Positions 5,828 to 28,362 of a stretch of 64,000 nt of DNA are shown here, in pieces; position 1 is the first letter of the stretch; each line of letters begins with the position of its first letter. The stretch spans positions 124,001-188,000 of the forward strand of contig NZ_BBLZ01000001.1 of NCBI RefSeq assembly GCF_000971195.1, in the 5' to 3' direction. A program made the translations under genes and the position numbers. Source of the DNA: Demequina soli (GTDB lineage Bacteria; Actinomycetota; Actinomycetes; Actinomycetales; Demequinaceae). The notes beneath the pieces are model-generated. The model worked only from the letters and a program-made list of their open reading frames with translations. It searched no databases and was not told the DNA's origin.

Positions 5828-5841
<14 letters not shown>
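4294..5841 (+). CDS. zorC: ZorC, type I Zorya effector-side protein (EH-signature type)
   Basis: A 515-residue soluble, mostly helical protein in the zorC position. I recognise it mainly by context and by the RLPPIGLPIPAAW N-terminus and overall size, as expected for EH-signature ZorC proteins of type I Zorya. No enzymatic motif is visible. Known ZorC binds DNA and works with ZorD after the ZorAB motor signals infection. Its ATG overlaps the zorB stop (ATGA), and its 3' end overlaps zorD by 14 bases, so all four genes form one translationally coupled unit. A Trp/Tyr-rich block (QLWTYLDLPSARVVDPSRRS) near residue 400 matches the kind of conserved C-terminal core that defines the family. Assignment is strong by synteny and moderate by sequence alone. 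Confidence 0.85.
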
Positions 5842-8857
<3,016 letters not shown>

Positions 8858-11352: not shown

Positions 11353-11361
11353 CGCGACCGC

Positions 11362-12657
11362 TTAGCCGACGACGAGCGCCGGGTCTGCCACCGTCGCGCG
11401 GTACCAAACTGTGTCCGGGCCCTTGACCGCCTGGCCCACGATGAACGCGGTCAGCGTCTTCATGTCCTGCACGCGCGACGTCGTGCTGGTCGAGCCCTCG
11501 CTTCGCGCGGGCACGACGCCGGTCTGGAACCAGGAGTCCCGCACATCGGGGAACACCGGCACCGCGAAGTGCGGCGCCATCTCGGCGAATGCCTCCTGGA
11601 TCGCCGCCGGCTTCCATCCGAGCTGCCGCAGCTCGAACCATGCGCCCGCGATAGCGCGCAGCACGACGTTGGAGCCGATCAGCGAGCGCGAACGCACCTG
11701 CGCGGGCGTCAGCGAACCGGACACCACATCCCTCAGCTCAGGGAACGCCGCCGTGATCGCGTCAGTGAAGGCGGTGAACTCGATCGCGATGTTCTTGTGA
11801 TCGAGCTCGTCCTCGAGACGCGGGGGGATCTTGCGCTTGCCGTTGGTGAGCGCGTGCAGCATCTCCGAGACATGCTTGGCGCCGATCAGGTACTTCGACG
11901 CACCCGACACACGATCCTGCTCGAGATCCACGCGCCCCTCGAGAAGCTCGTTGGAGATGAGTACCGCGTTGAGCGCACGCACCAGAACCTTGCGGTCATC
12001 GAAGCGGCTCTTGACCGAACCGGTGATGCCCTTGGCATTGTCGTTGATGTCAAGGAAGATACGTCGAGCAGTCTCGGGGTTCTCGACGAGCACGATCTGG
12101 ATCGAGACGCGCTCGCCTGCAAGTGCGTCGCGTCGGTCAACCTTCTTCTGGAGCTCCTTCTCCGCGTTCGCGATCACGGGGCGCTCACCGAGCTCCTTGG
12201 CCCGGCCCACGAGCGTGCGCGCCTCGGAGATATCTGCGGTGAGCTGCTCCCACGCGAGGTGGAAGCCCAGCGTGCGGTGCTGCCCGTCGACGATCGCGAT
12301 CTCGGACTTGGCGTCCTTCGGCACGGCAAGGGTGCCGAACTGCGTCGTACCCGTGTCGAGGTCCTTGCGGGAGTCGAACTCGAAGATGTGGGGCGCGCGC
12401 AGGAGCAGCGGCGGGGAGACCCAGTCCGCCTGCTCGACCACGTAGGTGCCGAACTGCTTGGCGTGGGTAGGGACGATCCGGCGCTGCGTCGCGGAGGAGT
12501 CGAGCGGCTTCTCCGGGTCGGGCTTCGGCAGGAAGGTCACGAGCTCGCGGACCGAGAGGTCCAGCGAGAAGACAGTACGGCCGCCCTGACGGTACTTGGC
12601 CGCGAAGAAGTACTCGTTCGGGTCGTAGCCCGTCGGAATGTGTGCGTTGTTCAGCAT
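11362..12657 (-). CDS. DGQHR-domain protein (DndB / DpdB-like)
   Basis: A 431-residue protein carrying the family motif VDGQHRTLGF at about residues 122-131. DGQHR proteins include DndB, a regulator in DNA phosphorothioation, and DpdB of the 7-deazaguanine DNA-modification cluster. The fold resembles ParB-like nucleotide-binding domains. No dndACDE or dpd partner genes are present here, so neither pathway can be assigned. It is the first gene of a two-gene minus-strand operon with the sigma-region-4-like protein. The ATG at 12657 has a GAGGGGC ribosome site, and a clear -35/-10 pair lies upstream at 12692-12720. A following LFLDIN-type segment (RIFLDINDNAKG) is typical of the family, supporting the call. 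Confidence 0.85.
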   Translation of the reverse strand: MLNNAHIPTGYDPNEYFFAAKYRQGGRTVFSLDLSVRELVTFLPKPDPEKPLDSSATQRRIVPTHAKQFGTYVVEQADWVSPPLLLRAPHIFEFDSRKDLDTGTTQFGTLAVPKDAKSEIAIVDGQHRTLGFHLAWEQLTADISEARTLVGRAKELGERPVIANAEKELQKKVDRRDALAGERVSIQIVLVENPETARRIFLDINDNAKGITGSVKSRFDDRKVLVRALNAVLISNELLEGRVDLEQDRVSGASKYLIGAKHVSEMLHALTNGKRKIPPRLEDELDHKNIAIEFTAFTDAITAAFPELRDVVSGSLTPAQVRSRSLIGSNVVLRAIAGAWFELRQLGWKPAAIQEAFAEMAPHFAVPVFPDVRDSWFQTGVVPARSEGSTSTTSRVQDMKTLTAFIVGQAVKGPDTVWYRATVADPALVVG

Positions 12658-12854: not shown

Positions 12855-14039
12855 ATGTCCGGCTACGCCGTCATCGATCTCGAGACCACCGGTTTCGCGT
12901 ACAAGTCGCTCGACCGCATCTGCGAGATCGCCGTGGTGCTCCTCGACGCCGAGGGCCGCCGCGAGGACGCCTACACCACCCTGGTCAACCCGCTCCGCGA
13001 CCTCGGCGCCCAGCACATCCACGGCATCGACGCCACCGACACCCGCGTCGCGCCCACGTTCGACCGCATCGTCGGCGACCTCACCGAGCTCCTCGGCGGC
13101 CGCACCGTGGTGGCGCACAACGCACCCTTCGACGTGCGCTTCCTCGCGGCGGAGTACGCGCGGGCGGGCGTCCCGATCGCGCTGACGCCGGACGATGCGG
13201 TGTGCACCATGAAGCTGGCGCGCGAGGTCGGGGTGCCGGCGAAGTTGGGCGACGCATGCCAGTACTACGGCATCCCGCTCGACGGCGCACACGCTGCCCT
13301 CGTCGACGCCGAGGCGACCGCGGTGCTCCTCAACCGCTACCGCGAACACCCGACCGTCGACCGCCGCTGGCACCAGCTCGCCACCGCGGGTGAGCGCCTC
13401 GCGTGGCCCACGGCCGCACCGCTTGCCACGTCCGTGGTCCGCCGCGGCGCGACCCGCCCCGGCAGCGGCCTCCTTGAGTCCGTGGTCGCAACGTTCGACG
13501 GCGCCAGCCACCACGCCGGCGAGGCCGCGTACCTCGACCTCCTCGAGCGCGTGCTGCTCGACCGCAAGATCACTGCAAGCGAGAAGGCTTCGCTCGACTC
13601 CGAGGCCGCGCGGCACGACCTCTCCGGAGCGGACCGCGAGCGCCTCCATCGCACGTACATGCTCGGAATCGTCGACGTCGCCTGCGACGACGACGTCCTC
13701 ACCGCCGACGAGCGTGCGCACATCGTTCAGATGGCGAACCTGCTCGGGCTCGCCGACCTCGAGGTCGAGGCGCTGCTCGCGCATGCGACCTCCAAGGTGT
13801 CGACCGTCGCCGCGTCGCTCGACCTTGCGCCGGGCGCGCTCGTCGTGTTCACCGGGCACTCCGCGGCCGACAAGTCGCACCTGACGGCCACCGCGGAGGC
13901 CCGCGGTCTGGTCATCTGGCCGGGTGTGAAGAAGGGCGTCGCCGCGGTGATCGCGAAGGATCCAGGATCGAACTCAGGCAAGGCCAAGAAGGCCCGCGAC
14001 CTCGGCATCCCGGTGGTCGGCGCCGACGTGCTCGCCTGA
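12855..14039 (+). CDS. DEDDh exonuclease with TerB-like middle and BRCT-like C-terminus
   Basis: A 394-residue protein. The N-terminal 175 residues are a DnaQ-type 3'-5' exonuclease: Asp and Glu of motif I are in VIDLETTGF, motif II Asp in HNAPFDVRF, and motif III His/Asp in GAHAALVDAEAT. Residues about 215-315 form a helical region with acidic pairs resembling TerB-like domains. The last 70 residues (ALVVFTGHSAADKSHLTATA onward) resemble a BRCT domain as in NAD-dependent ligase. The gene diverges from the DGQHR operon; a TAGCAT -10-like hexamer at 12816-12821 and a GAGGGAG ribosome site precede the ATG. It is not the replicative epsilon subunit, which lacks these extra domains. Likely a DNA-repair or defence exonuclease. 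Confidence 0.8.
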   Translation: MSGYAVIDLETTGFAYKSLDRICEIAVVLLDAEGRREDAYTTLVNPLRDLGAQHIHGIDATDTRVAPTFDRIVGDLTELLGGRTVVAHNAPFDVRFLAAEYARAGVPIALTPDDAVCTMKLAREVGVPAKLGDACQYYGIPLDGAHAALVDAEATAVLLNRYREHPTVDRRWHQLATAGERLAWPTAAPLATSVVRRGATRPGSGLLESVVATFDGASHHAGEAAYLDLLERVLLDRKITASEKASLDSEAARHDLSGADRERLHRTYMLGIVDVACDDDVLTADERAHIVQMANLLGLADLEVEALLAHATSKVSTVAASLDLAPGALVVFTGHSAADKSHLTATAEARGLVIWPGVKKGVAAVIAKDPGSNSGKAKKARDLGIPVVGADVLA

Positions 14040-14167
14040 CGCCCCGCACCAAGAAGGGCCTGGCAGGCGCGCCTCGACACCGAGTGTCGCACCCCCGTGG
14101 CAGGATCCTCGGCAGGCCCGGATCGCGACGCCGCGACCGGCCGCACATCGACTGAGGGGACACTGCG

Positions 14168-14863
14168 ATGACCGAACTGCCTGCCGCGCTGCGCGGATCC
14201 CTGGAGAAGGGCGCGCCCTCCCAGGACGGCATGGACTACATCCCTGCGCGCTGGGCCGAGTGGCTTATCGGGCTCCCGGTCTCGGCGGGCCTCCTCGAAG
14301 GAGAGCGCGCGAAGATCGACCGCGCCCAGCTCTGCACCTTCGTCCACGAGAGCGTGGACACCCACCCCGTCGACGCCCTCGTCGCCGTCTACCAGTGGGG
14401 CTACGGCACCGGCGGCCGCGGCCCCAGCCGCGCACGCAAGATCCTCACCGGCGGTGTGCACGATGTGGCACGCACCCGCGCCTATGACCCGACGGTCGCG
14501 GAGCGTCTGGCGGATTCCGTCACGCTTGCCCGCAGCGGCAAACCGTACGGAGCCTACGCCCAGCTCGCGCGCGGCGCCGGCCGGATCTCCGGCTTCGGCC
14601 CCGCGTTCTTCACGAAGTGGCTCTACGCGGTCTCGGCGCAGGGCGACCCGCGCTCCTCCACCGCGCTCCCGATCCTCGACTCGCTCGTCCAGGACTGGAT
14701 CAAGCGCGAGGCCGGCATCACGCTCCGCACGGGGAACGCCAAGGACTATGCCGCGTACGTCGACCTCCTCGACGAGTGGGCGGACACAACGGACGCCACC
14801 GTCCGCATCGACGTCGAGCTCGCGATCTTCGCCCTCGAGCGCGCGCACCGCGCCGCCGCCTGA
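14168..14863 (+). CDS. OGG-fold DNA glycosylase-like protein
   Basis: A 231-residue soluble protein resembling the family called 8-oxoguanine DNA glycosylase OGG-fold proteins. The suggestive part is a helix-hairpin-helix-like segment near residues 140-160 (ISGFGPAFFTKWLYAVS) with a Lys in the position where base-excision glycosylases carry the nucleophile. An Asp follows in LPILDSLVQDW, where the activating Asp would be. YQWGYGTGGRGPSRARKIL near residue 78 is another marker. Activity is not proven by sequence. It lies between the exonuclease and the type ISP enzyme in the same orientation, with an AGGGGAC ribosome site before the ATG. A glycosylase in this setting could act on modified phage DNA, which is inference. 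Confidence 0.6.
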   Translation: MTELPAALRGSLEKGAPSQDGMDYIPARWAEWLIGLPVSAGLLEGERAKIDRAQLCTFVHESVDTHPVDALVAVYQWGYGTGGRGPSRARKILTGGVHDVARTRAYDPTVAERLADSVTLARSGKPYGAYAQLARGAGRISGFGPAFFTKWLYAVSAQGDPRSSTALPILDSLVQDWIKREAGITLRTGNAKDYAAYVDLLDEWADTTDATVRIDVELAIFALERAHRAAA

Positions 14864-14940: not shown

Positions 14941-17900
14941 ATGACCACCACCGAACCGGCACCCGTCACGTCCTCGATCGAGGAGCTGCTCGACCGCATC
15001 ACCTTCGGATCGGCCTCCGAGGCCGAGAAGGGCGCCAAGTTCGAGCGCCTCACCAAGGCCTTCCTCAAGAACGACGTCGAGTGGGTGGCGCAGTTCGAGG
15101 ACGTGTGGCTGTGGAACGAGTGGCCCGAGCACAAGGGCCGCGACACCGGGATCGACCTGGTCGCCAAGCGTCGCGACAACGGCGAGTATGTCGCGATCCA
15201 GTGCAAGTTCTACGACCCCCAGACCACGCTCCAGAAGAGCCACATCGACTCGTTCCTCTCGGACTCCGGCAAGGAGCCGTTCGCCTCGCGCCTGGTGGTC
15301 TCGACGGTCCTCAAGTGGGGCCCCAACGCCGAGGACGCGATCAAGGGACAGGCGAAGCCGGTCAACCGCATCGGCCTGACGGACCTGCTCGAGTCCTCGA
15401 TCGACTGGGCGGTGTTCGACCCGGCCACCCCCGAGGCGATGACGCTCAAGGCGCGCAAGGAGCTCCGCCCGCACCAGCGCACCGCGCTCGACAAGGTCCG
15501 CGCGGGCTTCGAGCAGCATGACCGCGGCAAGCTCATCATGGCGTGCGGCACCGGTAAGACCTTCACCTCGCTCAAGATCGTCGAGGACCGCGTCAAGCCC
15601 GGCGGCGCCGTGCTGTTCCTGGTCCCCTCGATCGCTCTGCTGTCCCAGACCCTCAGGGAGTGGTCGCTCGAGGCCGAGGCGACCCTCCGTACGTTCGCGG
15701 TCTGCTCGGACATCAAGGTGGGCAAGAACGAGGACGCCGACATCTCCGTGGTCGACCTCGCGATCCCCGCGACCACCAACGCCCCGCACCTGGCACAGCG
15801 CCTCAAGGAGAAGAAGGACGATGCGATCACCGTCGTCTTCGCGACGTACCAGTCGATCGACGTGGTGCATCAGGCGCAGGCGCTCGGGGCCCCCGACTTC
15901 GACCTGGTGATCTGCGACGAGGCGCACCGCACCACCGGCGCGACGCTCGCGGGCTCCGAGGAGAGCGCCTTCGTGCGCGTTCACGACGAGGCCTACCTCA
16001 AGGCGGGCAAGCGCCTGTACATGACGGCAACGCCGCGGATCTACGACGACAACACCAAGGCGAAGGCCGGCGACACCAATGTGATCCTCGCCTCGATGGA
16101 CGACGAGGGCACGTTCGGCCCCGAGTTCCACCGCCTCGGCTTCGGCGAGGCGGTCGCCGCCGGCATGCTCACCGACTACCGGGTGCTCATCCTCGCGGTC
16201 GATGAGGGTGCGGTCGCGCGCGGCTTCCAGGGGACGATGGCCGCGGACGGCGAGCTCGATCTCGACGACGTCGCGCGGATCGTCGGCTGTTGGAACGGCC
16301 TGTCCAAGCACGGCCGCGCCGAGCATGACTTCGGCTTCGACCCCTCCCCCATGAAGCGCGCGGTCGCGTTCAGCCGCTCCATCAAGGACTCGAAGCTCTT
16401 CGCGGCCAAGTTCGAGGCCGTCATCGGCGACTACGTCCGCAACCAGGGCCTCAACGAGGATGGCGACAGCGTGCTGGACGCCGAGGTGCGCCACGTCGAC
16501 GGCGCGATGAACATCCTCGAGCGCAACGGGCACCTCGACTGGCTCAAGACGGACCCGGGCACCGACGCGTGCCGCATCCTCACCAACGCCAAGTGCCTGT
16601 CCGAGGGCGTCGACGTGCCCGCCCTCGACGCGGTGATGTTCCTCAACCCGCGCAAGTCCGTGGTGGACGTGGTCCAGTCCGTCGGGCGCGTGATGCGCCT
16701 CGCGCCGGGCAAGAAGTACGGCTACATCATCCTTCCCATCGGCATCCCTGCGGGCATCAGCCCCGAGGAGGCGCTCAAGGACAACGAGAAGTACCGCGTG
16801 GTGTGGGAGGTGCTGCAGGCGCTGCGCGCCCACGACGAACGCTTCGACGCGATGGTCAACAGCATCGACCTCAACAAGACCCGTTCCGACATGGTCAACG
16901 TCATCGGCGTGGGCACCGGTGGCAGCGGAGGGTCGAAGGACGATGCGGGGGCCGAGACCCAACTTTCGTTCGACTTCGCGGCGTTGGACGACTGGCGCGA
17001 CGCGATCTACGCCAAGCTCGTCAACAAGGTTGGCTCGCGCCGGTACTGGGAGGACTGGGCCAAGGACGTCGCCAAGATCGCCGAGCGTCACCGCACCCGG
17101 CTGCTGGCGATCCTCGACTCGGGCCACGCCGCCGATGAGTTCGAGTCCTTCCACACCGCGCTGAAGGCGAACCTCAACGAGGGCATCTCCCGGGGCGACG
17201 CGATCGACATGCTCTCGCAGCACATGATCACCAAGCCCGTGTTCGACGCGCTGTTCGGCGAGCACTCCTTCGCGGAGAAGAACCCCGTCTCGCAGGTCAT
17301 GCAGACGATGCTCGAGACCCTCGAGGGTGCGAACCTCGAGTCCGAGACCGAGGCACTCGACAAGTTCTACGAGTCGGTGAAGCTCCGCGCCGCCGGCATC
17401 GACAACGCCCAGGGCAAGCAGCGCATCATCACCGAGCTGTACGAGCGGTTCTTCAAGCTCGCCTTCCCACGCGCCGCGGACGCGCTCGGCATCGTCTACA
17501 CCCCCACCGAGATCGTCGACTTCATCCTGCGGTCGGTCGACCATCTCTCGCGCGAGCACTTCGGCAGGGGCTTGTCAGACGAGGGCGTCCACGTCCTCGA
17601 CCCGTTCACCGGCACCGGCACGTTCATCACGCGCCTGCTCGCGAGCGAGCTCATCTCGCCGCACGATCTCGCCCGCAAGTACGCGTCAGAGATGCACGCC
17701 AACGAGATCATGCTGCTCGCCTACTACATCGCCGCGATCAACATCGAGACGACGTATCAGCAGCGGCTGCTCGACGTCGGCCAGGAGGCGAACTACGAGA
17801 CCTTCAATGGAATCGTCTTGACCGACACCTTCCAGATGACCGAGAACGGCGACATCGACGACCTCGTCGTGTTCACCTCGAATAACGCCCGCGTCGAGGC

Positions 17901-19752
17901 GCAGCGCGCGCTCGATATCCGCGTGATCGTCGGCAACCCGCCCTATTCCGTGGGCCAGTCGTCTGGCAACGACAACAACGCCAACCTCAAATACCCGTCG
18001 CTCGACGCTCAGATCGAGAAGACGTTCGCCGCGCGGTCAACCGCCAAGCTGAAGAACAGCCTCTACGACTCCTACATTCGAGCCATCCGTTGGGCCGCCA
18101 CCCGCATCGGCGACGCCGGCGTCATCGGCTTCGTCACCAACGGCGGCTTCGTCGACGCCAACACGGCCGACGGACTGCGCAAGACCCTCGCCGACGAGTT
18201 CACCGATATCTACGTGTACAACCTCCGCGGCAACCAGCGCACCGCTGGCGAGCAGTCGCGCAAGGAGGGCGGCAAGGTCTTCGGCTCCGGCTCCCGCAAC
18301 ACCGTTGCAGTCACCTTCCTCGTCAAGAACCCCGACGTCGCTCGCGACCGGGCAGTCGTGCATTACCGAGACATCGGCGACTACCTCAGCCGCGAGCAGA
18401 AGCTCGAGATCGTGGACCACGCCGAGCTCGCCACTCTCGAGTGGGCGGAGATCACCCCGAACGATGCCGGCGACTGGACAAACCAGCGATCCGGAAACTT
18501 CGAAAAGTGGCAGTCCATCTGCGACGGCAGCGACGCGATGTTCAGCATCTACTCCGGAGGCTTGAAGACAAACCGCGACGCGTGGGTCTACAACTTTGCC
18601 TCCACCAAAGTACGAGACAACGTAGCCCGAATGATCGATTTCTACAACGCCCAAACCGATGCGTTCGCCACACACATCGCGGCGTCCCCCGAGCGTGATG
18701 CCAAGACCGCGGTGGATGAATTCATCGATACTGACCCGAAGAAGTTCAGTTGGGACCGCGCTGATAGGACAAGGCTCCCGCGGGGCACCCACTACGTGGC
18801 AAACCCGGGCGCATTGCGAGTGAGCACCTATCGACCGTTCTGTCGGCAAGCCGTATGGTTCGACCGCGAACTGAACAACACCGTCTACAAGATGCCGACG
18901 CTCTACCCGACGTCGGAGGTGAATAATCACGGAATCGCGGTCCAGGCCCCGGGAGGCTCTGCCCCGTTCGCAGTCCTCGCGGTACGCGGCCTATCGGACA
19001 ATGTCCTTGTGGGTGCAGGCAATCCCACCCAAGTACTCGCGCGCTACACGTTCGAGGCGACCGTCGGTGCGACCCTCGACTTGGGCGGCGAAGTCACAAG
19101 CGGCTACCGACGTCATGACAATGTCACCGATGCGACGCTGAAGAAGTACCGCGGCTGGTACGGTGGGCAAGTCTTAAAGGACGACGTATTCGCTTTCACC
19201 TACGGATTCCTGCACTCGCGCGAATATCGCGATCAGTTTGCGGCCGATCTCAAGCGATCGCTCCCACGCATTCCTCGGATCAGTACCGAAGACTTCCCGC
19301 GGTTCGTCGACGCGGGCACGAGGCTCCTCGAACTGCACATCAACTACGAGGACGCTGACCCGTACCCGCTCGTGATCGACGGCATCCCCGAGGGACTCGA
19401 CGAGGACGCGATGTACGACGCCCTCCGCGTCATCAAGATGGCCTACGGGAAGTCGGGTAGAGACAAGGACCTCACGACCATCCGCTACTCGGGCAGCATC
19501 ACCGTCCGCGGCATTCCCGAAGAGGCCCACCGCTACGTGCTCGGCTCCCGGTCGGCGCTCGACTGGATCATCGACCGCTACCAGGTGAAGACCGACAAGG
19601 CCTCAGGCATCGTCAACGACCCCAACGACTGGTCGCGCGAGGTGAACAACCCCCGCTACATCCTCGACCTCCTCGCCAAGGTCACGACTGTTTCGGTCGA
19701 GACCATGAGGATCGTCGATGCCCTGCCGCCGCTGCGGATCGTGGAGGACTGA
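14941..19752 (+). CDS. Type ISP single-chain restriction-modification enzyme
   Basis: A 1603-residue protein of the LlaBIII/LlaGI class, which cuts and methylates DNA from one polypeptide. In order: an Mrr-like PD-(D/E)XK nuclease (GIDLVAKRR and AIQCKFY, residues about 70-91); an SF2 translocase with Walker A ACGTGKTF (about 201), DEAH (about 326) and a helicase C half ending near SVGRVMRLAPG; a helical coupler; an N6-adenine methylase with DPFTGTGTF (about 886) and NPPY (about 999); and a C-terminal target-recognition region from about 1050. Length fits the class (about 1570-1650). The ATG has a GGAGA ribosome site, and a TACCGT hexamer about 40 bases upstream may be its -10. One enzyme normally methylates one strand and needs two head-to-head sites to cut. 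All key motifs are intact. Confidence 0.93.
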   Translation: MTTTEPAPVTSSIEELLDRITFGSASEAEKGAKFERLTKAFLKNDVEWVAQFEDVWLWNEWPEHKGRDTGIDLVAKRRDNGEYVAIQCKFYDPQTTLQKSHIDSFLSDSGKEPFASRLVVSTVLKWGPNAEDAIKGQAKPVNRIGLTDLLESSIDWAVFDPATPEAMTLKARKELRPHQRTALDKVRAGFEQHDRGKLIMACGTGKTFTSLKIVEDRVKPGGAVLFLVPSIALLSQTLREWSLEAEATLRTFAVCSDIKVGKNEDADISVVDLAIPATTNAPHLAQRLKEKKDDAITVVFATYQSIDVVHQAQALGAPDFDLVICDEAHRTTGATLAGSEESAFVRVHDEAYLKAGKRLYMTATPRIYDDNTKAKAGDTNVILASMDDEGTFGPEFHRLGFGEAVAAGMLTDYRVLILAVDEGAVARGFQGTMAADGELDLDDVARIVGCWNGLSKHGRAEHDFGFDPSPMKRAVAFSRSIKDSKLFAAKFEAVIGDYVRNQGLNEDGDSVLDAEVRHVDGAMNILERNGHLDWLKTDPGTDACRILTNAKCLSEGVDVPALDAVMFLNPRKSVVDVVQSVGRVMRLAPGKKYGYIILPIGIPAGISPEEALKDNEKYRVVWEVLQALRAHDERFDAMVNSIDLNKTRSDMVNVIGVGTGGSGGSKDDAGAETQLSFDFAALDDWRDAIYAKLVNKVGSRRYWEDWAKDVAKIAERHRTRLLAILDSGHAADEFESFHTALKANLNEGISRGDAIDMLSQHMITKPVFDALFGEHSFAEKNPVSQVMQTMLETLEGANLESETEALDKFYESVKLRAAGIDNAQGKQRIITELYERFFKLAFPRAADALGIVYTPTEIVDFILRSVDHLSREHFGRGLSDEGVHVLDPFTGTGTFITRLLASELISPHDLARKYASEMHANEIMLLAYYIAAINIETTYQQRLLDVGQEANYETFNGIVLTDTFQMTENGDIDDLVVFTSNNARVEAQRALDIRVIVGNPPYSVGQSSGNDNNANLKYPSLDAQIEKTFAARSTAKLKNSLYDSYIRAIRWAATRIGDAGVIGFVTNGGFVDANTADGLRKTLADEFTDIYVYNLRGNQRTAGEQSRKEGGKVFGSGSRNTVAVTFLVKNPDVARDRAVVHYRDIGDYLSREQKLEIVDHAELATLEWAEITPNDAGDWTNQRSGNFEKWQSICDGSDAMFSIYSGGLKTNRDAWVYNFASTKVRDNVARMIDFYNAQTDAFATHIAASPERDAKTAVDEFIDTDPKKFSWDRADRTRLPRGTHYVANPGALRVSTYRPFCRQAVWFDRELNNTVYKMPTLYPTSEVNNHGIAVQAPGGSAPFAVLAVRGLSDNVLVGAGNPTQVLARYTFEATVGATLDLGGEVTSGYRRHDNVTDATLKKYRGWYGGQVLKDDVFAFTYGFLHSREYRDQFAADLKRSLPRIPRISTEDFPRFVDAGTRLLELHINYEDADPYPLVIDGIPEGLDEDAMYDALRVIKMAYGKSGRDKDLTTIRYSGSITVRGIPEEAHRYVLGSRSALDWIIDRYQVKTDKASGIVNDPNDWSREVNNPRYILDLLAKVTTVSVETMRIVDALPPLRIVED

Positions 19753-19756
19753 TCGC

Positions 19757-22495
19757 GTGACCGCCGCAAACCCAAGCGCCCCGCCAGCCGCGCCCAAGGC
19801 GGTCGGCGGGGCCTCGGGCGCCGTCGCATCGTCCGCCCACGCGGGCTGCGCGCGCTTCCGCGGCACCGATCCGTTGATCACCGGCCGCAGCCGACGCCAG
19901 CTCGCGAGCGACCTCGGCCACGCCGACTCCTCCGGCGCGATCCCCGAGGCGCGCTGGATCCGCGCGATGACCTTCGAGCGGCTGCTGCGCCGCGAGGACT
20001 TCGCCTCGCGCATCGCCGTCACCACCGCGGGCGGGCTTGACCTCGCGCGACCCGACGAGGTCGTCACGGTCCACGCGCGCGCCAACGTCCGCACCACTGC
20101 GCGGCTTCTTGCCGACGCCCACGTTCGGGCCACCGGCGACGGCGTCGTGACCATCGTCTTCGGGCTCGCGGTGCCGTTCGTCGGGTTCGATGTCGCGTCG
20201 GCGACCGCCGCGAAGCCGGATTTCGCCGTCGTGATCCCCAAGGCGGACTGCAAGGGCTCGTGGCTGGTGGTCGGCGACGCCAAGGACTACGAGCGGCTCC
20301 GTTCCCGCATCGACGACGCCCGCCTGCTCAAGGGATTCCTCCAGGTCGCGGTCGGCGCGGAGTGCATGACCGCCTGGTCGCAGTTACCTGCGGGCATGGA
20401 GGTCCACACGCACGGCGTTCTCGCGGTGCCCCGCAACTCGTTCCTTCTGCCGCGCATCGTGGTCGAGAACCTTCACGACCACCGGCAGGAGGTGCTCGCC
20501 CGCATCGAGCAGCGGCGCGACGATGCCGAGAAGATCGCCGTCGAGCCCGACGAGACGCTCGCTGGATTCGTCGCGCACCTCGAGGCGACCTTCGACCCGG
20601 CGACCTGCGCCACCTGCTCGCTGTTCTCGTACTGCCGCGAACGGCTCCGCGCGTCGAACGTGACCGCGGACCTCCTCGTCGAGATCGGCGTGCCGCGGGC
20701 GAGTCGACCGGCCGTCGCCGAATGGCTCGCGGACGAGACCGACGGCACGGCGTTGCCGGCCACCGTGACCTCCTCGGTGACCGCGACCACCACCGGCGCC
20801 GCGGTGGCCACGGGCCGTCGCCGGACCGATGTCCTCGGCGACGCCGGCACCATTGAGGTGGTGATCGCCAAGTCCGAGGCCGCCGCGCTCGGTGTGCATG
20901 GCTTCGGGATGCGCCGCACCTCGTCCGCCGGACAGGGCGAGTGGGCGTGGCGCACGTTCGCCGATGCCCAGACGCTCACCACGCGACTCGCGGTCATGGA
21001 GGCGCTCGGCGCGCAGATCGACGCCGCCGTCGCCGACCAGGCCGCCGCCTCGCCCGAGGCTCCGCAGCCGATCCACGTCGTCACGCCCGACTCGGTCACC
21101 GCGGACATGCTGGTATCCATCGCCGACAGCCTCGCGGGCGTCGAGATCTCCCGGCTGCGTTGGAAGCACGACGTCGAGGCCGGTCGCGAGCCTCTCACGT
21201 TCGACGGTGCGCCCGCGGAGATGCCGATGGCGCTGAGCGCCCACGCCCGCACCGCGGTGAGCTTCCTGCTCGAAGCGGACCGGGCCCGCGCATCGTCCTC
21301 CCGCGCCGCGCTGGTCAACGCGCGCGACGTCCTCGCCGGACTGGTCACCGCCGGTGGCGCGCCGATCCTATCGGGCCGTCTCGACTACCTGCTCGCGTGG
21401 GCGAACGCCGACGGGAGCGTCGACCACCGCGCGGTCGCGGACTCGATCGAAAGCCGCCTCGAGACACCCGGCGCGCGGCTGTCGAACCGCCGGAGCGACG
21501 ACCTCCACCGGCTGCTCCCCCGCACCGAGCGCTCCGGCGACGGCGCAGGTCCCTATCGCGACGCTGTGCTGGACGAGCTCCGGTACAAGGCAGACACCCT
21601 CGACGCGACCATCGTTCGCGTTCAGGCCTTCCCGCGGTCCGCGCTCGCGGTCGCCTCGCGCGAGGTCGAAGCGCGCGCCCAGGCCGTGTGGCGGCGCAGG
21701 CTCGCGTTCCACGCGAACGACCTGGTCCGGTTCGGCAGGACTGCTCGCTTCTGGCGGGTCCGCCTGGTGAAGACGCACGAGAAGGACGGGGCCTGGCAGC
21801 AGCGTGTCGACGCGCTCGTCCATCCCGGGCTGGCGCACGACCGCGCCGTCGCGCCGGGCACCCGCGAGCTGTCGCTCGCACGCGTCGTATCGGTTTCTCC
21901 CCTGGTGCTCGACGTCGGATCGCGGCGCTTCGTGTCCGGGACCCGGGTGGTGGCGCTGCACCTCAACGGTGCTCCGCTGGTAGAAGAGCACGGCGTCGCC
22001 GCTGACGTGAGGAAGGACGCGCTCCACCTCGCGGGGATGGCAGTCGGTGAGCTCGACCGCTTCGAGGTCGACGACGACGCCTCCGCCACCCATCTGGCGT
22101 GGCACCCGTTAGTGACCCTCAACCTCGCCGTGGGCGACCGCATCGTCCTCGCGGACCATTCGTGGCTCTCCGCGGCCAGCGGTGACGCCCTGGCCATCGA
22201 GCTGCCGCCGGTGGACGATGCACTAGCGCCGAAGTCCTCCTGCCTGACCGAGTCGTATGGCGAGGATCCCGGCAACCACCAGTGGTGCTGCAAGCCTCAC
22301 GAGGTCTACGAGGCCGAGCAGGCGGACTCGATCGCGAAGCGTCGCGCGAAGGGCGAGCTCAATCCCGAGGTGTGGCCGCCGGTGACCGATGGCGACGCCT
22401 TCGACGCCCTCGGCACGAACGAGGACGGCGCCGACGCACCCGTCGATGACGCCGAGCCCATGCCCGACGGCCTCACGATCGACGACCTGGAGTAG
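19757..22495 (+). CDS. Cas4/Dna2-like Fe-S PD-(D/E)XK nuclease, large form
   Basis: A 912-residue protein whose first third is a RecB-type nuclease with an iron-sulfur latch. KPDFAVV (about 153) and VVGDAKDY (about 172-179) supply the PD and DxK catalytic residues. One Cys near residue 30 (HAGCARF) and three in TCATCSLFSYC (about 284-294) reproduce the one-plus-three cysteine pattern of Cas4, AddB and Dna2. The remaining 600 residues hold no motif I recognise, though a GTRVVALHLNG / VGDRIVLADHSW region looks like beta-rich DNA-binding folds seen in Dna2-like proteins. The GTG start lies 4 bases after the type ISP stop, and the next gene, an SF1 helicase, begins 2 bases after its end. Nuclease and helicase together look like a Dna2 split in two. 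It is not CRISPR-associated, as no array or other cas gene is present. Confidence 0.75.
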   Translation: MTAANPSAPPAAPKAVGGASGAVASSAHAGCARFRGTDPLITGRSRRQLASDLGHADSSGAIPEARWIRAMTFERLLRREDFASRIAVTTAGGLDLARPDEVVTVHARANVRTTARLLADAHVRATGDGVVTIVFGLAVPFVGFDVASATAAKPDFAVVIPKADCKGSWLVVGDAKDYERLRSRIDDARLLKGFLQVAVGAECMTAWSQLPAGMEVHTHGVLAVPRNSFLLPRIVVENLHDHRQEVLARIEQRRDDAEKIAVEPDETLAGFVAHLEATFDPATCATCSLFSYCRERLRASNVTADLLVEIGVPRASRPAVAEWLADETDGTALPATVTSSVTATTTGAAVATGRRRTDVLGDAGTIEVVIAKSEAAALGVHGFGMRRTSSAGQGEWAWRTFADAQTLTTRLAVMEALGAQIDAAVADQAAASPEAPQPIHVVTPDSVTADMLVSIADSLAGVEISRLRWKHDVEAGREPLTFDGAPAEMPMALSAHARTAVSFLLEADRARASSSRAALVNARDVLAGLVTAGGAPILSGRLDYLLAWANADGSVDHRAVADSIESRLETPGARLSNRRSDDLHRLLPRTERSGDGAGPYRDAVLDELRYKADTLDATIVRVQAFPRSALAVASREVEARAQAVWRRRLAFHANDLVRFGRTARFWRVRLVKTHEKDGAWQQRVDALVHPGLAHDRAVAPGTRELSLARVVSVSPLVLDVGSRRFVSGTRVVALHLNGAPLVEEHGVAADVRKDALHLAGMAVGELDRFEVDDDASATHLAWHPLVTLNLAVGDRIVLADHSWLSAASGDALAIELPPVDDALAPKSSCLTESYGEDPGNHQWCCKPHEVYEAEQADSIAKRRAKGELNPEVWPPVTDGDAFDALGTNEDGADAPVDDAEPMPDGLTIDDLE

Positions 22496-22497
22496 AG

Positions 22498-24003
22498 ATG
22501 ACGTCCCCCTTCTCCCCTCCCCTCGTCGAGGCGGGGCCCGCGGTGCACCACGCCGAGGCCGCGCAGCGCAATGCCGCCGTGGCGGACGAGGCAGCAACCG
22601 AGCTCGACGCGATGCTCACCGGAGCCTCGGACAACAAGCGCCTGCTGCTCAAGGCCGCCGCGGGCGCCGGGAAGTCGTATGTGCTGCGGCGCCTGGTGGT
22701 CGAGGCCGCGTCCCACGCCCATGTCTCCCGCGTGGCCGTGGCCGCATTCACCAATAAGCAGGTGCTCCCCCTCGCCGAGCAGCTAGGCGAGGCGCTCGGC
22801 AAGGACAAGGTCTGCCTGTTCGTGTCGAAGGGGAAGTTCGATGACGTCCCCGTCGAGGTTCACGCCGTCGCGACCGTGGTGAGCAAGTACGCCGATATCC
22901 CCGGGAGCGCGCGCGTGGTTGTCGCCACGTGCTCGAAGCTGGGCATTCAGTACGGAGCCAAGTGGCTCGAGAAGGCGCTCGGCAAGGGCGCCAATGGCAA
23001 GACGATCTTCGACGTACTCTTCGTCGACGAGGCCTGGCAGATCCCTCACCACCTGTTCGACGAGCCCTCGAGACTCGCCCCGCTGTGGGTCGGCGTCGGC
23101 GACGTGGGTCAGCTCCCTCCGCTCGAGGTGGGCGAGAACCCGTGGCGCGGTGACGACGGCTTCAACCCCTACCGTGCGTGGCCCACCGACTACGACGACG
23201 ATGCGAAGACCTGGACGCGCGAGCTCCCCGCAGTCTGGCGCCCGGCTGCGGGGCACCTCGAGCTCTGGCGTGCCTTCTACCCCGAGTGGGGCTCGCTCGA
23301 CTGCGTCGCGGCACCGGGCGACCGTCGCCTGGACCTCGGCTCGATCGCGGCGCCGTTCGACACCCTGTGGGCGCAGGTGGGCACCGGCGTGCCGACCCTG
23401 CTCGAGATCGACGGACTCCCCGAGCCCGAGTCCCCCGACGTCGACCTTCCGCTGATGGAGTTCATCGAGGCTGCGCTGGACGCGTTCTTCGCTGGCGGCG
23501 CGTCCCTCCAGGCGGCTTTGTACGACGCAACGGGCGCGCCCACCGGCGCATCGTCCCGTGTGGCGCCGGGCGGCGACCACTCGGACCCGATGGCGACCAT
23601 CCTCGCGACGCGCAACCAGGCGGTGGACGATGCGGCGGACGCCGTCGACCGTCTGCGCGAGCGGCACGGCCTCACCGAGCGCGACCTGGTGAGCTCGACC
23701 GTCGACTCCTACCAGGGGCAGACCAACGGCATCACGGTCGCGCTGCACCCGCTCAACGGCGCGTCCGAGCTCGACGAGTTCAACTCTGCCTTCGGGCGGC
23801 TCGCGGTGACGTGCACGCGCGCGACCCACGGGCTGCTCGTGGTCGCCCGTCCGGGACTCGACGAGCTGCTCGATGACGCTCCGGCGCGCCCAGGCACACC
23901 GTTCGGGGAGCCCGGCAACCGCCAGCTCCCCCGACAGACGCACCAGAGGATCCTCGCAACCTTTGCCCGCGGGCGGATCGCAGTCGCCGGCGAAGAGGAG
24001 TAA
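22498..24003 (+). CDS. SF1 helicase, Dna2/Upf1-like
   Basis: A 501-residue ATPase with helicase superfamily 1 motifs in order: Walker A AAAGAGKSYVL (about residue 53), Walker B LFVDEAWQIP (about 178), motif III VGDVGQLPPLEVGE (about 200), motif V STVDSYQGQTNGI (about 400) and motif VI VTCTRATHGLLVV (about 438). DEAW in place of DEAQ/DEAD and the short overall length are unusual. It begins 2 bases after the Cas4-like nuclease gene, so the two are coupled and probably form one helicase-nuclease machine. The ATG follows a weak GGAGTAG. The next gene starts 13 bases downstream. Confidence 0.82.
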   Translation: MTSPFSPPLVEAGPAVHHAEAAQRNAAVADEAATELDAMLTGASDNKRLLLKAAAGAGKSYVLRRLVVEAASHAHVSRVAVAAFTNKQVLPLAEQLGEALGKDKVCLFVSKGKFDDVPVEVHAVATVVSKYADIPGSARVVVATCSKLGIQYGAKWLEKALGKGANGKTIFDVLFVDEAWQIPHHLFDEPSRLAPLWVGVGDVGQLPPLEVGENPWRGDDGFNPYRAWPTDYDDDAKTWTRELPAVWRPAAGHLELWRAFYPEWGSLDCVAAPGDRRLDLGSIAAPFDTLWAQVGTGVPTLLEIDGLPEPESPDVDLPLMEFIEAALDAFFAGGASLQAALYDATGAPTGASSRVAPGGDHSDPMATILATRNQAVDDAADAVDRLRERHGLTERDLVSSTVDSYQGQTNGITVALHPLNGASELDEFNSAFGRLAVTCTRATHGLLVVARPGLDELLDDAPARPGTPFGEPGNRQLPRQTHQRILATFARGRIAVAGEEE

Positions 24004-24016
24004 CGGAGGTGGAGAC

Positions 24017-24655
24017 ATGGACAGCGCCCAACTGACGCGCGAGGACCGGTTCCGCATGCTGCTCGCGGAGTGGCATGACCGCGCCGGCGCCCCCGACTGG
24101 AACGACGACCTGCTGCGCCTAACCGACGAATGGCGTGCGGTCGCGTGGACCAGCGGCGGCAAAACTCTTCTCGCCGCGCTCGGCCTCCAGTATCAGGAGG
24201 TCGCGCTGTGCCGGGCGCTGGCGTGGCTGCTCGACCCCTCAGGCGGACACCACATGGGGCGCGAACTGATCGATGCCTTCTTCGAGGACCTGGGATTGCC
24301 CGTCGAGCGCAATGCACCCGTGTCCATCCGCGTGGAGGAGTCGCGTTCTGGCACACGCGCCGACATCGTGCTGCGAGTTGGCGGCCAAACCGTCATCATC
24401 GAGGCGAAGGTCTTCGCGGGAGAGCAGCCAGAACAGGCCGACCGGTTGTCTCGTCACTGGGCGGATGACACGCCCGTTCTGGTCTTCCTCACCCGGACAG
24501 GCCACCTGCCCTCCACGGCGAAGCAGAGCGCGGACTTGTGGGTCGCCCGGGCCTGGCGCGACCTCGCCCGGCTCGCGCGCGACGTGGCGGACCGCGAGGG
24601 GCTCAACCTGTCGGCTGGCGCGCGCGAATACATCGAGACGATCGGAGCACTGTGA
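24017..24655 (+). CDS. PD-(D/E)XK superfamily nuclease-like protein
   Basis: A 212-residue protein with a recognisable PD-(D/E)XK core: GTRADIVLRV supplies the Asp, TVIIEAKVFAGEQ the Glu-x-Lys (about residues 128-134), followed by the downstream Gln. The helix YQEVALCRALAWLLDPSG before it is typical of the PDDEXK_4-like branch found in defence islands. The ATG at 24017 follows a strong GGAGGTGGAG ribosome site. It is 13 bases after the SF1 helicase and overlaps the next gene by one base (TGATG), so it belongs to the same operon as the type ISP enzyme and the helicase-nuclease pair. The substrate is unknown. Confidence 0.78.
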   Translation: MDSAQLTREDRFRMLLAEWHDRAGAPDWNDDLLRLTDEWRAVAWTSGGKTLLAALGLQYQEVALCRALAWLLDPSGGHHMGRELIDAFFEDLGLPVERNAPVSIRVEESRSGTRADIVLRVGGQTVIIEAKVFAGEQPEQADRLSRHWADDTPVLVFLTRTGHLPSTAKQSADLWVARAWRDLARLARDVADREGLNLSAGAREYIETIGAL

Positions 24656-25341
24656 TGACTGGCGACCCTGTCAACTTCTACGTGCGGAACCGGAAGCAGA
24701 TCTCCGAGTGGGCCGGTCTCCGGGTGCAGACAGAAAAGCTGATGCGAGACGCCGTATCGAAGGAGTCGCCTGACACAGCCCTCAAGCTCATGACGGGCGA
24801 GTCAGGCGACGCCGACGTCGACTTCTACGTGCGGAACCGATCCCTCATCGAGGAGTGGGATGCGCTCCAGGGACCAGCGGGGCTTGCTCTGCATCACGCC
24901 TTGCTCGAGGCTGCGACCGGCGTTGGCGCTCGAGCCCACGAGGGGAAACGTGGTTGGACGACCGTCTCCTTGCCCGAGGCAGAGCTCGGCACCCTCGTCG
25001 CGGAGCGCCACGAACCGCTTGTGGAACTTGTCTGGACGAAGAGCGACCTCCTTTCGACAAGGAGGGGCTACGCGTTCCCGCGCATGACGCTCGCCTTCAA
25101 TCCGAATACCTGGACCAAGGATGAGCGCCTCGGCGCCCGAGCCGCGACACGCAAGGTCGCGCACTCGCTGGGCATGAGGCGCATAGGAGACGCCTGGTGG
25201 GCCCACTGGGGAGTGCTCCCGGAGATCAACGAGACCCAATCGCTCGGCGACTACGCAGCCGCGTGCATCGACATGCTGAACGAAGGATCCGCGCGCCTCT
25301 ACCCTGCCGTCCGCGACTGGTTCAGCGAGCTGCCCTCGTAG
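24655..25341 (+). CDS. Unrecognised protein with a duplicated FYVRNR motif
   Basis: A 228-residue protein I cannot place in a family. The first 70 residues contain the same element twice: NFYVRNRKQISEWAGL at about residues 7-22 and DFYVRNRSLIEEWDAL at about 55-70. The rest has a Trp-rich segment (VELVWTKSDLL, NPNTWTKDE, AWWAHWGVL) without a known catalytic pattern. The ATG at 24655 overlaps the previous stop by one base; a GTG three bases earlier is possible. It is the last gene of the operon that begins with the type ISP enzyme or earlier. Whether it binds DNA, inhibits its partner, or is a specificity factor cannot be told. Confidence 0.7.
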   Translation: MTGDPVNFYVRNRKQISEWAGLRVQTEKLMRDAVSKESPDTALKLMTGESGDADVDFYVRNRSLIEEWDALQGPAGLALHHALLEAATGVGARAHEGKRGWTTVSLPEAELGTLVAERHEPLVELVWTKSDLLSTRRGYAFPRMTLAFNPNTWTKDERLGARAATRKVAHSLGMRRIGDAWWAHWGVLPEINETQSLGDYAAACIDMLNEGSARLYPAVRDWFSELPS

Positions 25342-25348
25342 CCAGCAA

Positions 25349-25366
25349 TCGGCTTAGCGCAGCCGA
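25349..25366. terminator. Weak hairpin between convergent genes
   Basis: TCGGCT at 25349-25354 pairs with AGCCGA at 25361-25366 across a six-base loop. It lies at the 12-base junction of two convergent genes and overlaps the stop codon of the minus-strand gene. The stem is short, so the call is tentative. Confidence 0.35.
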
Positions 25367-28260
25367 GCCGCCTTGCAGATGGTCTTGACGTCGCACGTGC
25401 GGCACTTGGCGACCTCGGGCCGCGGGTCGTAGTCCCCCTCCCGGAGCCTGCCGACGGTGGCGATGACCTGGCTCTCCGCGACGCCTATCGCAGGCATGCC
25501 GACGTCGACCGTGTGGCGGCGCGCCGTGCCCAGATCGTGGATGTACGCCGCCGAGACATCGAGGCCCTCCCTGCGCCCGGCATCGGCGTAGACCTGGAGC
25601 TGGAGCGGCTCGATGCCGCCGCCGACCGAGGTCTTGTAGTCGACGATCGCGAGCGAGCCGGCATCGTCGTAGATGACGTCGGCTCGGCCCGCAACCACCA
25701 CTCCGTCGAGGTAGAGCTCGAATGGACGTTCCGTAGCCCACGTCTTGGCGAGATCATCGGAGTGCTCGGTGACGTATCGGTGGACCAAGCGCCGCGCAGC
25801 CTCCCGCATCTCCTTGTGCGCAGGCTTGTTGGCATAGGGAAGATAGAATTCGCTGTCGATCAGCTGGTCGACCTCCACGAGCGTGGGGACCGTGCCCGTG
25901 GCCATGGTCGCCTCCGCGACCACGCGCATCGTGTGATGCACCGCGTTCCCGTAGCCAAGCTCCTGCTGGATGGGCGGCATGAACCCGAGCTCGTTCTTGA
26001 GGAGGTAGCCACGCGGGCAGGACTCGTATGCGGCCAGCTCGCTGAAGGTGAGCGCAAGCTCCCCTTCCGACTTGGGCGGCTTCGCGACCACGGTGGTCGG
26101 GGTGCCCGGACTCGCGAGCAGGCCCTCCGCCTCCTCGAAATACGGTGACGGGCCCTTGCGGTGGCCGTTCTTCTGGCGCGAGTGCGCCGAGAGCAGGAGC
26201 GCATCGCGCGATCGCGTGACGGCGACGTAGAACAGGCGGCGCTCGTCGGCATCAACGCCCTCGTACCTCGCGGCGTCGAAGCGCCCCTCGAGCACGCTGG
26301 GCCACTCCTGCGCGGCGCCCATGCGACTCGACGGGAAGCGCCCCTTCACGAGGGACGGAAGGAACACCACCGGCCACTCGAGGCCCTTCGAGCCGTGAAT
26401 GGTGCCAAGGGAGACTCCGTCGACGGAGGCATCCATGCCCTCGAAGGCGTCGTAGCTGCCGCTCGCATAGTTCGCGAGAAGGATCGCGAAGTTCTTGTAG
26501 AACCATTCGCCACCGCTCTGGCCGCCGACCTGCTCGCCGGGGTTCTTGGGGTCGCGGCGCGCGCGCCAGCTCACGCCCTCGTAGTCGGCCAGCACTTGGG
26601 TGAACCGCGCAACGGTGCCGATGCGGTTACGGGTGTAGGCGTCGGTCAGGTCCCAGTCGCGAACGCCCAGCAGCGCGATGAGCGCGTAGTAGTCACGGAC
26701 CAGGCTCTCGTTGAACTCGCTCGCGAGCGCCCGGCCCTGCCATGTGGTCAGGTGATCGGTGAGGACGGCGCGCGTCGGTGCCGCGAGGTCGAACGACTCG
26801 GCCAGCGCGTCGACGACGTCCTCGAGGGAGACATCCTCGCGCTGGCCCCACTTGCCGACCTTCCACTCGATGCTCGCCAACCACGCGTAGGCCTTGCCGA
26901 GCGCTGCGGCCTCGGGCTGCGCGAACAGGCCTGTGCGGCCTCCCGGCTGTACCGGGATCCTGTGATTCTCAAGCGCCGCGAGCAGCGCGGGGTAGGCGGC
27001 CTTGCCACGCACCAGGATCGCGATGTCGCGGTACGGCAGGCCCTGTGCGTAGAACGTGGCGATCTGCTGGGCGATCGCATCGGCCTCGTCGGACTCGGTC
27101 CCAGTGTCACGTGCGATCGCGACGGACGGGCCGTCGGCCTCGCGCGCGGCGGACATCTCCTTGTCGAAGCGTCCCGGGATCGAGTGAGCGAAGCGGTTCG
27201 CGAGATCGACCACTCCGGGGCGTGAACGTCGGTTCTGGAGCAGCTCGAAGCGCTCGACCCCCGGGTAGCGAGCCTGGAACGTGAGGATGTTCTCGACCGC
27301 GGAGCCGCGCCACTGGTAGATGGCCTGGTCGTCGTCACCGACGACCACGACGTCCGCCGACCCGTGCGGCTTCGCGAGCAGGCTGATGAGCCTCTCCTGC
27401 GCGGGGTTGACGTCCTGATATTCGTCGACGATGAGGTGGCGCAGGTCGGCGGCAACGGCCTCGTGGATCTTGGGGTCCTCGAGCGCGCGGACCGCGTGGA
27501 CGATCTGGGTCCCGAACGACATCACCTGATAGCGGTCGAGCATGTCGTAGTACTCGCGGGCGGTCTCGGTGAAGGCATCGGCCGGCAGCTCGTCGAGGCC
27601 GACGAGCTCGTTCTCGAGGACGTCGATGCCGCGGGCAAACGTCTCGATGTTGGCGAAGAGTCCCTTGTCAGGGTTGAGCGCCTTGATGCCGAGCCCGTAC
27701 GCCTCGCGGTACAGCAGGTTGGTGAGCTGGTTCTGGTCGAGCGGCGTGAAAGTCTCGAATCGCGGCACGTACTGCTGCAGCATTCGGAAGCAGTAGGCGT
27801 GGATGGTGCCGACGAACAGGCGGCCGAGCTCGTCGCTCGCCTCCGGACCCTTCAGCGCCGTCACTCGCTCGCGGATGCGCTCCTTGAGCTCGCTCGCTGC
27901 CTTCTCGGTGAAGGTGAACGCGACGATGGCCTCGGGCCTCTCACCGTCGACGAGGAGCGCAGCGACGCGCTGCGAGACGACCTCCGTCTTGCCGGAGCCG
28001 GCCGCCGCGACGATCTGGATGTGCGAGCCGCGGTGCTCGACCGCGGCCTTGGCGTCGCCCTCGAGGACAGGGATCGCGACGGGCTTGAGCGGCGCTGGGC
28101 GGCTCGTGCGCGGCGGCGCGTCAGGCCGGGTCGTCGGGACGGCGGGCGCTGGCCGCGGCACGATGGGTGGTGCAGGCGGTTGCGTCGGCGCGGGGGCGAC
28201 GAAGGGCTTCGGCGCGCGCGGCTTGGCGCTCTCCGGTTGCGGCACCCACGTGAACTTCAT
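25354..28260 (-). CDS. UvrD-type helicase fused to a RecB-like Fe-S nuclease
   Basis: A 968-residue ATP-dependent helicase-nuclease. SF1A motifs: Walker A AAAGSGKTEVV (about residue 84), DEYQDVNPAQ (about 279), GDDDQAIYQWRG, a GTIHGSKGLEWPVVFLP motif V and VAVTRSRDALL motif VI. The C-terminal 270 residues are a PD-(D/E)XK domain with ADVIYDD and AIVDYKTS, flanked by one Cys (ESCPRGYLLKN) and three in CRTCDVKTIC, an iron-sulfur latch as in AddB/AdnAB. Residues 20-65 form a Pro/Ala-rich linker. The frame is open further upstream, but the ATG at 28260 has a GAGGGG ribosome site and gives MKFTWVPQ, so it is chosen. It converges on the helicase-nuclease operon. AdnA/AdnB-like repair is an alternative, but no partner gene is adjacent. 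Confidence 0.85.
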   Translation of the reverse strand: MKFTWVPQPESAKPRAPKPFVAPAPTQPPAPPIVPRPAPAVPTTRPDAPPRTSRPAPLKPVAIPVLEGDAKAAVEHRGSHIQIVAAAGSGKTEVVSQRVAALLVDGERPEAIVAFTFTEKAASELKERIRERVTALKGPEASDELGRLFVGTIHAYCFRMLQQYVPRFETFTPLDQNQLTNLLYREAYGLGIKALNPDKGLFANIETFARGIDVLENELVGLDELPADAFTETAREYYDMLDRYQVMSFGTQIVHAVRALEDPKIHEAVAADLRHLIVDEYQDVNPAQERLISLLAKPHGSADVVVVGDDDQAIYQWRGSAVENILTFQARYPGVERFELLQNRRSRPGVVDLANRFAHSIPGRFDKEMSAAREADGPSVAIARDTGTESDEADAIAQQIATFYAQGLPYRDIAILVRGKAAYPALLAALENHRIPVQPGGRTGLFAQPEAAALGKAYAWLASIEWKVGKWGQREDVSLEDVVDALAESFDLAAPTRAVLTDHLTTWQGRALASEFNESLVRDYYALIALLGVRDWDLTDAYTRNRIGTVARFTQVLADYEGVSWRARRDPKNPGEQVGGQSGGEWFYKNFAILLANYASGSYDAFEGMDASVDGVSLGTIHGSKGLEWPVVFLPSLVKGRFPSSRMGAAQEWPSVLEGRFDAARYEGVDADERRLFYVAVTRSRDALLLSAHSRQKNGHRKGPSPYFEEAEGLLASPGTPTTVVAKPPKSEGELALTFSELAAYESCPRGYLLKNELGFMPPIQQELGYGNAVHHTMRVVAEATMATGTVPTLVEVDQLIDSEFYLPYANKPAHKEMREAARRLVHRYVTEHSDDLAKTWATERPFELYLDGVVVAGRADVIYDDAGSLAIVDYKTSVGGGIEPLQLQVYADAGRREGLDVSAAYIHDLGTARRHTVDVGMPAIGVAESQVIATVGRLREGDYDPRPEVAKCRTCDVKTICKAARLR

Positions 28261-28362
28261 CTGCTGCCCCTCAGCCTTGCTTCTTGTGAATCCATTGTCG
28301 GCACCACGAACTGGGTCCTCGGCTCGCAAGAACCGGGACCCCACCGCTCTGCCGCCACCTGG

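Follow-up and report, generated by a model that had tools for sequence, protein, structure and literature searches.

In a 64,000-nucleotide stretch of Demequina soli DNA (contig NZ_BBLZ01000001.1, positions 124,001 to 188,000; hereafter the window, from a 3.0 Mb genome, G000, contig 16), a type ISP restriction-modification (R-M) enzyme is followed by two genes, here termed FeS and HEL, for a predicted iron-sulfur (Fe-S) nuclease and a superfamily 1 (SF1) helicase. We lean, with modest confidence, to the view that FeS and HEL constitute a portable, split Dna2-like helicase-nuclease, which would supply an ATP-dependent restriction enzyme, of type ISP here and of type III in relatives, with a degradation arm. 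An earlier note on this DNA had seen in the type ISP gene and four coupled followers a candidate new composite system. The tie between the type ISP gene and a split Dna2-like pair stands, but the partnership of the last two genes does not, and "new system" is too strong because similar helicase-nucleases beside type III R-M genes are already in print (PMC7430649 and PMC5704561). The five genes are not a single unit, and their core is the two-gene pair. What is new here is a split form outside Pfam, its link to type ISP enzymes, a lineage-specific linkage in two R-M classes and the replacement of the pair by a three-gene form. The five genes are as follows:

14941..19752, + strand, gene 1: type ISP R-M enzyme, 1603 amino acids (Pfam PF13156, PF04851, PF22240, PF02384, PF18135)
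19757..22495, + strand, gene 2 (FeS): predicted Fe-S nuclease of the RecB/Dna2 type, 912 amino acids (motifs invariant in relatives)
22498..24003, + strand, gene 3 (HEL): SF1 helicase of the Upf1/Dna2 kind (SF1B), from SF1 motifs, profile relation and adjacency to FeS
24017..24655, + strand, gene 4: PDDEXK_4 protein (Pfam PF14281, E 4.7e-12; PADLOC candidate PDC-S26)
24655..25341, + strand, gene 5: orphan protein with a short internal repeat, without a family match

Their coordinates confirm five open reading frames on one strand, separated by 4, 2, 13 and -1 bases. The classes that had been read from the letters for genes 1, 3, 4 and 5 (type ISP enzyme, SF1 helicase, PD-(D/E)XK protein and protein with a duplicated motif) are borne out by Pfam, by motifs and by the presence of YVRNRxxIxEW twice in gene 5. 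Gene 1 has the full-length type ISP order of Mrr nuclease, superfamily 2 helicase, ISP coupler, N6-methyltransferase and Type_ISP_C (Pfam, E 7.4e-87 for the last); the QCK site of its Mrr nuclease is intact, and its nuclease residues match those of type ISP enzymes that are not linked to the pair. The gene content is also, as had been stated, not that of BREX, DISARM or CRISPR, a PADLOC scan of the five genes having given no full-length match to signature genes of these systems.

Recurrence of the pair beside particular restriction enzymes

FeS was searched for in overlapping genome samples, the phylum, order and class counts each including the window's own genome. For the phylum 2 of 396 genomes gave a match, for the order 6 of 396 (one of them weak), for the class 8 of 394 (one a remnant), for one genus 12 of 196 (again with one remnant) and for one family 3 of 147; further matches came from 2 of 72,556 plasmid records and, in an exact-seed search, from one genome_contigs record. 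The viral-contig scan returned no FeS relative, and HEL likewise had no phage match. Two matches were left out of the set of loci: that of G463 (21 bits over 81 residues) and that of G896 (66 residues, two stops). The latter is a decayed copy on contig 1, 161401-161598 (L019), where a short remnant with two in-frame stops is seen. The neighbourhood survey thus covers the window and 22 full-length actinobacterial relatives, 23 loci in all. Since the 22 other loci hold colinear relatives of genes 2 and 3, at 43-67% identity, the observation of the five genes goes beyond chance.

HEL adjoins FeS in 23 of 23 loci (in L044 it is cut by the contig end), with its start codon -17 to +14 nucleotides from the FeS stop in all 21 relatives measured (L004 left out). 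A type ISP gene adjoins the pair in 10 loci, lying upstream on the same strand in the window and divergent from FeS in the nine others, and type III Mod and Res genes, named by PADLOC on L011, lie downstream of HEL on the same strand in 9. The two classes were found together in none of the stretches surveyed around the pair. When the near-copies L003 and L004 are counted once, 18 of 22 distinct loci are linked to type ISP or type III, and the type ISP link was observed in three genera, namely the window's, the most-sampled genus and that of G841. The earlier note had called for a survey of the four followers with and without the type ISP gene; the two-gene set recurs in this manner, with type ISP in 10, type III in 9 and neither in 4 of the 23 loci, but the four-gene set does not, genes 4 and 5 standing beside FeS-HEL in 0 of 22 other loci.

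That the pair is linked to particular lineages of type ISP and type III enzymes is well supported. Among 138 genomes of one genus there are 21 type ISP genes in 19 genomes (fragments joined for the count), and 7 of these adjoin FeS. A tree of 18 full-length type ISP enzymes separates 8 linked enzymes, the window's included, from 10 unlinked ones by one branch at 100/100; it excludes L022, whose gene is in two frames, L042, truncated at a contig end, and unlinked genes that are broken or partial (G1224, G1217, G1128:C3 and G1125). Similarly, 18 rows of type III Res are split by one branch at 100/100 into 9 linked and 9 unlinked (two of the latter long-branched), with L004, which nearly duplicates L003, and the Res of G818, G1129, G1114 and G1159, all unlinked, excluded. 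Eight unlinked Res rows are on plasmids that carry neither FeS nor the 406-residue nuclease of the three-gene form described below, since those two turned up in five other records when all plasmid records were searched.

Thirteen alignment columns are fixed differently between linked and unlinked type ISP enzymes. The nuclease-site residues, QCK in type ISP and DPH in Res, do not differ between linked and unlinked rows, which rules out the pair as a replacement for a dead partner nuclease; since the linked enzymes keep these residues, the pair therefore adds to cleavage and is not a substitute for it. As a separate observation, Res (L011, 15731-18313, and 17 relatives) carries D-P-H where a C-terminal D/E-x-K would be expected, in linked and unlinked rows alike.

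At the window, the pair has likely exchanged partners, as judged from tree placement. In their trees, the window's copies of FeS and HEL are placed on the type III side (FeS 100/99, HEL 100/99, joined 100/100; the HEL tree being built without L044), whereas its type ISP enzyme groups with the other linked type ISP enzymes. In approximately unbiased (AU) tests, for which the groups were named after the trees had been seen, a placement of the window's HEL on the type ISP side is rejected (p 0.009, or 0.016 with L014), and one of its FeS is not (p 0.34). A single origin of the type ISP link is hence rejected by the HEL tree but not by the FeS tree.

Predicted activities of FeS and HEL and their three-gene relatives

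Gene 2 had been called a large Fe-S nuclease from the letters, and the label is kept because its motifs are conserved in relatives, in the absence of any family match: it matches nothing in Pfam (E up to 1), PADLOC or NCBIfam (E up to 0.1), and the family of 11 rows that includes the window's protein has as its best Pfam match an unrelated family (E 0.083). Invariant in these 11 rows, the window's and 10 relatives, are C31, P154-D155, D174-A-K176, Q196 and C284-x2-C287-x5-C293. In an alignment of 23 rows the same motif residues except C31 are identical in all, and C31 is kept in all 19 rows that include the N-terminus. The four conserved cysteines, of which one precedes and three follow the PD-(D/E)XK motifs, are arranged as in iron-staple nucleases of the RecB type such as AddB. 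Such 'iron staple' nucleases combine RecB-family motifs with four cysteines spanning the domain (PMC7430649). The predicted nuclease part occupies approximately residues 1-345, and the central and C-terminal region, whose fold was not recognised, has conserved C829, H841, C844, C845 and H848.

HEL carries Walker A (AAAGAGK), DEAW, GDVGQLPP, VWRP, STVD..QGQ and TRATHG, all invariant or nearly so in 11 rows. Its Pfam matches are generic AAA models, along with a weak UvrD N-terminal match below the cut-off, and its own profile gives a single weak match in the PDB, to another protein. It is assigned to SF1B because the helicase of the three-gene operon, to which it has a profile relation of 99.9%, matches the SMUBP-2, DNA2 and UPF1 structures.

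This operon, in which the nuclease, middle protein and helicase are separate genes, is a distant relative of the pair. Its 406-residue nuclease was matched in 23 of 158 class genomes; 24 loci were read, and the helicase was found in 23. FeS residues 1-345 match the profile of this nuclease (hhalign, 96%, E 3.7e-9), five other families and five column-shuffled copies used as controls all remaining at or below 0.8%. In the alignment C31, C287, C293 and P154-D155 are in register, with C284 and D174-x-K176 one column off. The 406-residue protein itself carries EPD, E183-I-K185 and Q205-x3-Y209, QxxxY being a RecB motif, and PDDEXK_1 matches weakly in 2 of 12 rows of its family (best E 0.047). Matches of its profile in the PDB, to two designed proteins and an envelope protein (E 0.71), were discounted as composition matches. 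The C-terminal part of FeS showed no significant relation to the separate middle protein (2.9%).

The strongest sign that the pair serves the restriction enzyme comes from L082, where a linked type III Res lacks FeS-HEL and has instead the three-gene operon, divergent from Mod, as if the pair had been swapped for its distant equivalent. A defence or end-processing neighbour is seen in 5 of the 24 three-gene loci, among them:

L092 and L093, two Streptomyces plasmids: three-gene form with SbcCD and Wadjet
L126: three-gene form with SbcCD and a helicase with HA repeats
L127: three-gene form with HmaA and pPIWI-RE genes

The gene after the operon in L126 gave a tblastn match as a type ISP enzyme and was rejected as such, since by Pfam it consists of a helicase and HA repeats and has no methyltransferase.

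Proposed role, alternatives and relation to known enzymes

Under the reading that we favour, two molecules of the type ISP enzyme would collide on unmodified DNA, and their scattered nicks would sum to a break, as in other type ISP enzymes, whose collisions lead from scattered nicks to a double-strand break (PMC4666363). The pair may then load on the flaps or ends, unwind 5' to 3' and cut the single strand, by analogy with Bad, a 5'-3' motor on single-stranded DNA and single-stranded DNA endonuclease with a preference for 5' flaps and free ends (PMC7430649). The invader would in this way be degraded and not resealed or recombined, and host DNA would be spared because methylated host sites would not start the collision and nicking of the first step. 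Both the order of these events and the further degradation of cut DNA, which the earlier note had also put forward, are what we infer. Once restriction has cut phage DNA, what follows is usually ascribed to general exonucleases of the host. If the proposal is true, restriction in certain type ISP and type III lineages would be a two-step pathway, cutting followed by unwinding and shredding, some restriction systems may bring their own clean-up machinery, and a role would be suggested for Bad-type enzymes. A wider proposal, namely that type ISP and type III each hold a lineage dependent on an exchangeable Dna2-like nuclease-helicase, and that the three-gene form also serves Wadjet and other DNA-cutting defences, is put forward as a tentative possibility, more doubtful than the first.

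A number of results weigh against the proposed role. Fourteen of the 21 type ISP genes of the genus counted above have no FeS within 1.5 kb beyond the match. Four of the 23 pair loci have neither type ISP nor type III: in L002 an AspBHI/Mrr-type enzyme is divergent from FeS, in L012 Zac genes are present, and in L013 and L014 no reference gene stands beside the pair and PADLOC matched none of eight neighbouring proteins. A single genus supplies 11 of the 22 relatives, and 8 of the 9 others that are linked to type ISP, which makes the sample narrow. The assignment of gene 2 is a motif-level prediction: a PDB search with the FeS profile gave nothing up to E 10, a comparison of FeS with the nuclease domain of a UvrD fusion encoded in the window itself gave no significant match, and a structure prediction for gene 2 with one relative as input had a pLDDT of 35 and was excluded from fold searches. 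Lastly, 19 of the 24 three-gene loci lack reference defence genes (judged by reference genes, their neighbours not having been run through PADLOC), and nine of these 19 (L128-L136) share one syntenic chromosomal position within a genus, a pattern compatible with general DNA repair. A general DNA-end processing activity recruited by defence systems would explain both sets of three-gene loci, and so would plain repair.

The occurrence of a chromosomal three-gene form at a conserved place, with no recognised defence genes, is also what would be expected if the pair protected the host by trimming or resecting ends and nicks introduced into the host's own newly replicated DNA by enzymes of these type ISP and type III lineages. 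DNA2-type enzymes are indeed resection and flap-processing enzymes (PMC7430649), and type ISP enzymes can nick replicated host DNA at head-to-tail sites (PMC4666363). However, lapses of N6 methylation do not explain the three-gene form beside Wadjet or HmaA/pPIWI-RE, and we regard host protection, although the foremost alternative, as unlikely. Actinobacteria, moreover, already possess end-resection enzymes, which include AdnAB. The lineage-specific partnership in both R-M classes and the 13 differently fixed columns would accord, on the other hand, with an obligate subunit, in which the type ISP or type III enzyme recognises and recruits the pair, whose cutting or unwinding would be the main restriction step. 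We find this improbable to a still greater degree, given that the linked enzymes retain their own nuclease sites and that the pair occurs without either R-M class in the four loci above.

Little more credence is given to the pair being an independent antiphage or repair module that merely shares islands and transfer with R-M genes. The stand-alone loci L013 and L014 would be in line with such a module, as would the position of the window and its relatives amid other defence genes (Zorya in the former, Zac in 9 of 22 stretches of the latter); against it, 19 of 23 loci have an R-M partner directly beside the pair in fixed layouts, R-M enzymes with the link group apart from those without it, and the distant equivalent takes the pair's place in L082.

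The proposed degradation arm has its nearest described counterpart in Bad, which consists of a Fe-S RecB-type nuclease, a central domain of unrecognised fold and an SF1B helicase; in the Geobacilli examined it is always beside a type III-like M gene, and the authors suggest a novel restriction enzyme while stating its physiological role as unknown (PMC7430649). The gene order of the pair, nuclease, central region and helicase, is the domain order of this single chain, the two being compared by layout and not by sequence. Nevertheless, Bad is one polypeptide whereas the pair takes up two genes in each of the 23 loci, and the distant form three, and the partners of the pair are complete type ISP or Mod and Res systems in place of a type III-like M gene. 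UvrD-Cas4 fusions, most commonly found beside type III Mod and Res and in some cases with Schlafen-like ATPases (PMC5704561), likewise join a Fe-S nuclease to an SF1 helicase near type III genes, and L011 too has a Schlafen-like ATPase. Their helicase is, however, UvrD-like (SF1A) and fused, while HEL is Upf1/Dna2-like and a separate gene; their nuclease is in PF12705, to which gene 2 has no match; and the section on them in PMC5704561 does not mention a type ISP link such as that of the pair. LlaGI and LlaBIII have the same domain order as gene 1 but are described as single-chain enzymes (PMC4666363), whereas gene 1 is followed by the helicase-nuclease pair. In the open-access literature searched, no description was found of a type ISP link with such a helicase-nuclease. 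AddAB, RecBCD and AdnAB also combine a helicase with a Fe-S or RecB-type nuclease at DNA ends, but differ from the pair in helicase family, sequence and gene context.

Genes 4 and 5 and other neighbours

Genes 4 and 5 are probably local passengers. Gene 5 has no match in Pfam, PADLOC or NCBIfam; a search of 60 phylum genomes found only the window's own copy, and the plasmids gave none. The possibility that the two genes are one split PDC-S26 protein was rejected, as gene 5 matched the C-termini of plasmid PDDEXK_4 proteins (387-414 amino acids) no better than shuffled controls did. Around the five genes the window carries:

1818-8857, + strand: type I Zorya, with ZorA, ZorB, ZorC and ZorD all matching PADLOC models
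8914-12657, - strand: 812-residue protein with a sigma-70 region 4-like domain, beside a DGQHR/DndB-like protein
12855-14863, + strand: DEDDh exonuclease (PDC-S48 model) and OGG-like DNA glycosylase, directly upstream of the type ISP gene
25354-28344, - strand: UvrD helicase fused to a PF12705 nuclease, convergent, 12 bases past gene 5
30493-32690, - strand: ADP-ribosylglycohydrolase with a dual-specificity phosphatase-like end, beside a TY-Chap2 protein

The OGG-like glycosylase has no match in the 22 other stretches, and the DEDDh exonuclease is matched there just once, distantly, at the far end of L014. The UvrD-PF12705 fusion has the architecture of the UvrD-Cas4 fusions (PMC5704561). Zac genes or parts of them (ZacA, B and C being named by PADLOC on L011) are present in nine relatives' stretches, those of L011, L012, L020, L021, L043, L045, L046, L047 and L049, and a 26% identical relative of the 812-residue sigma-70-like protein is encoded near FeS-HEL and the type ISP gene in L022 (3535-4932).

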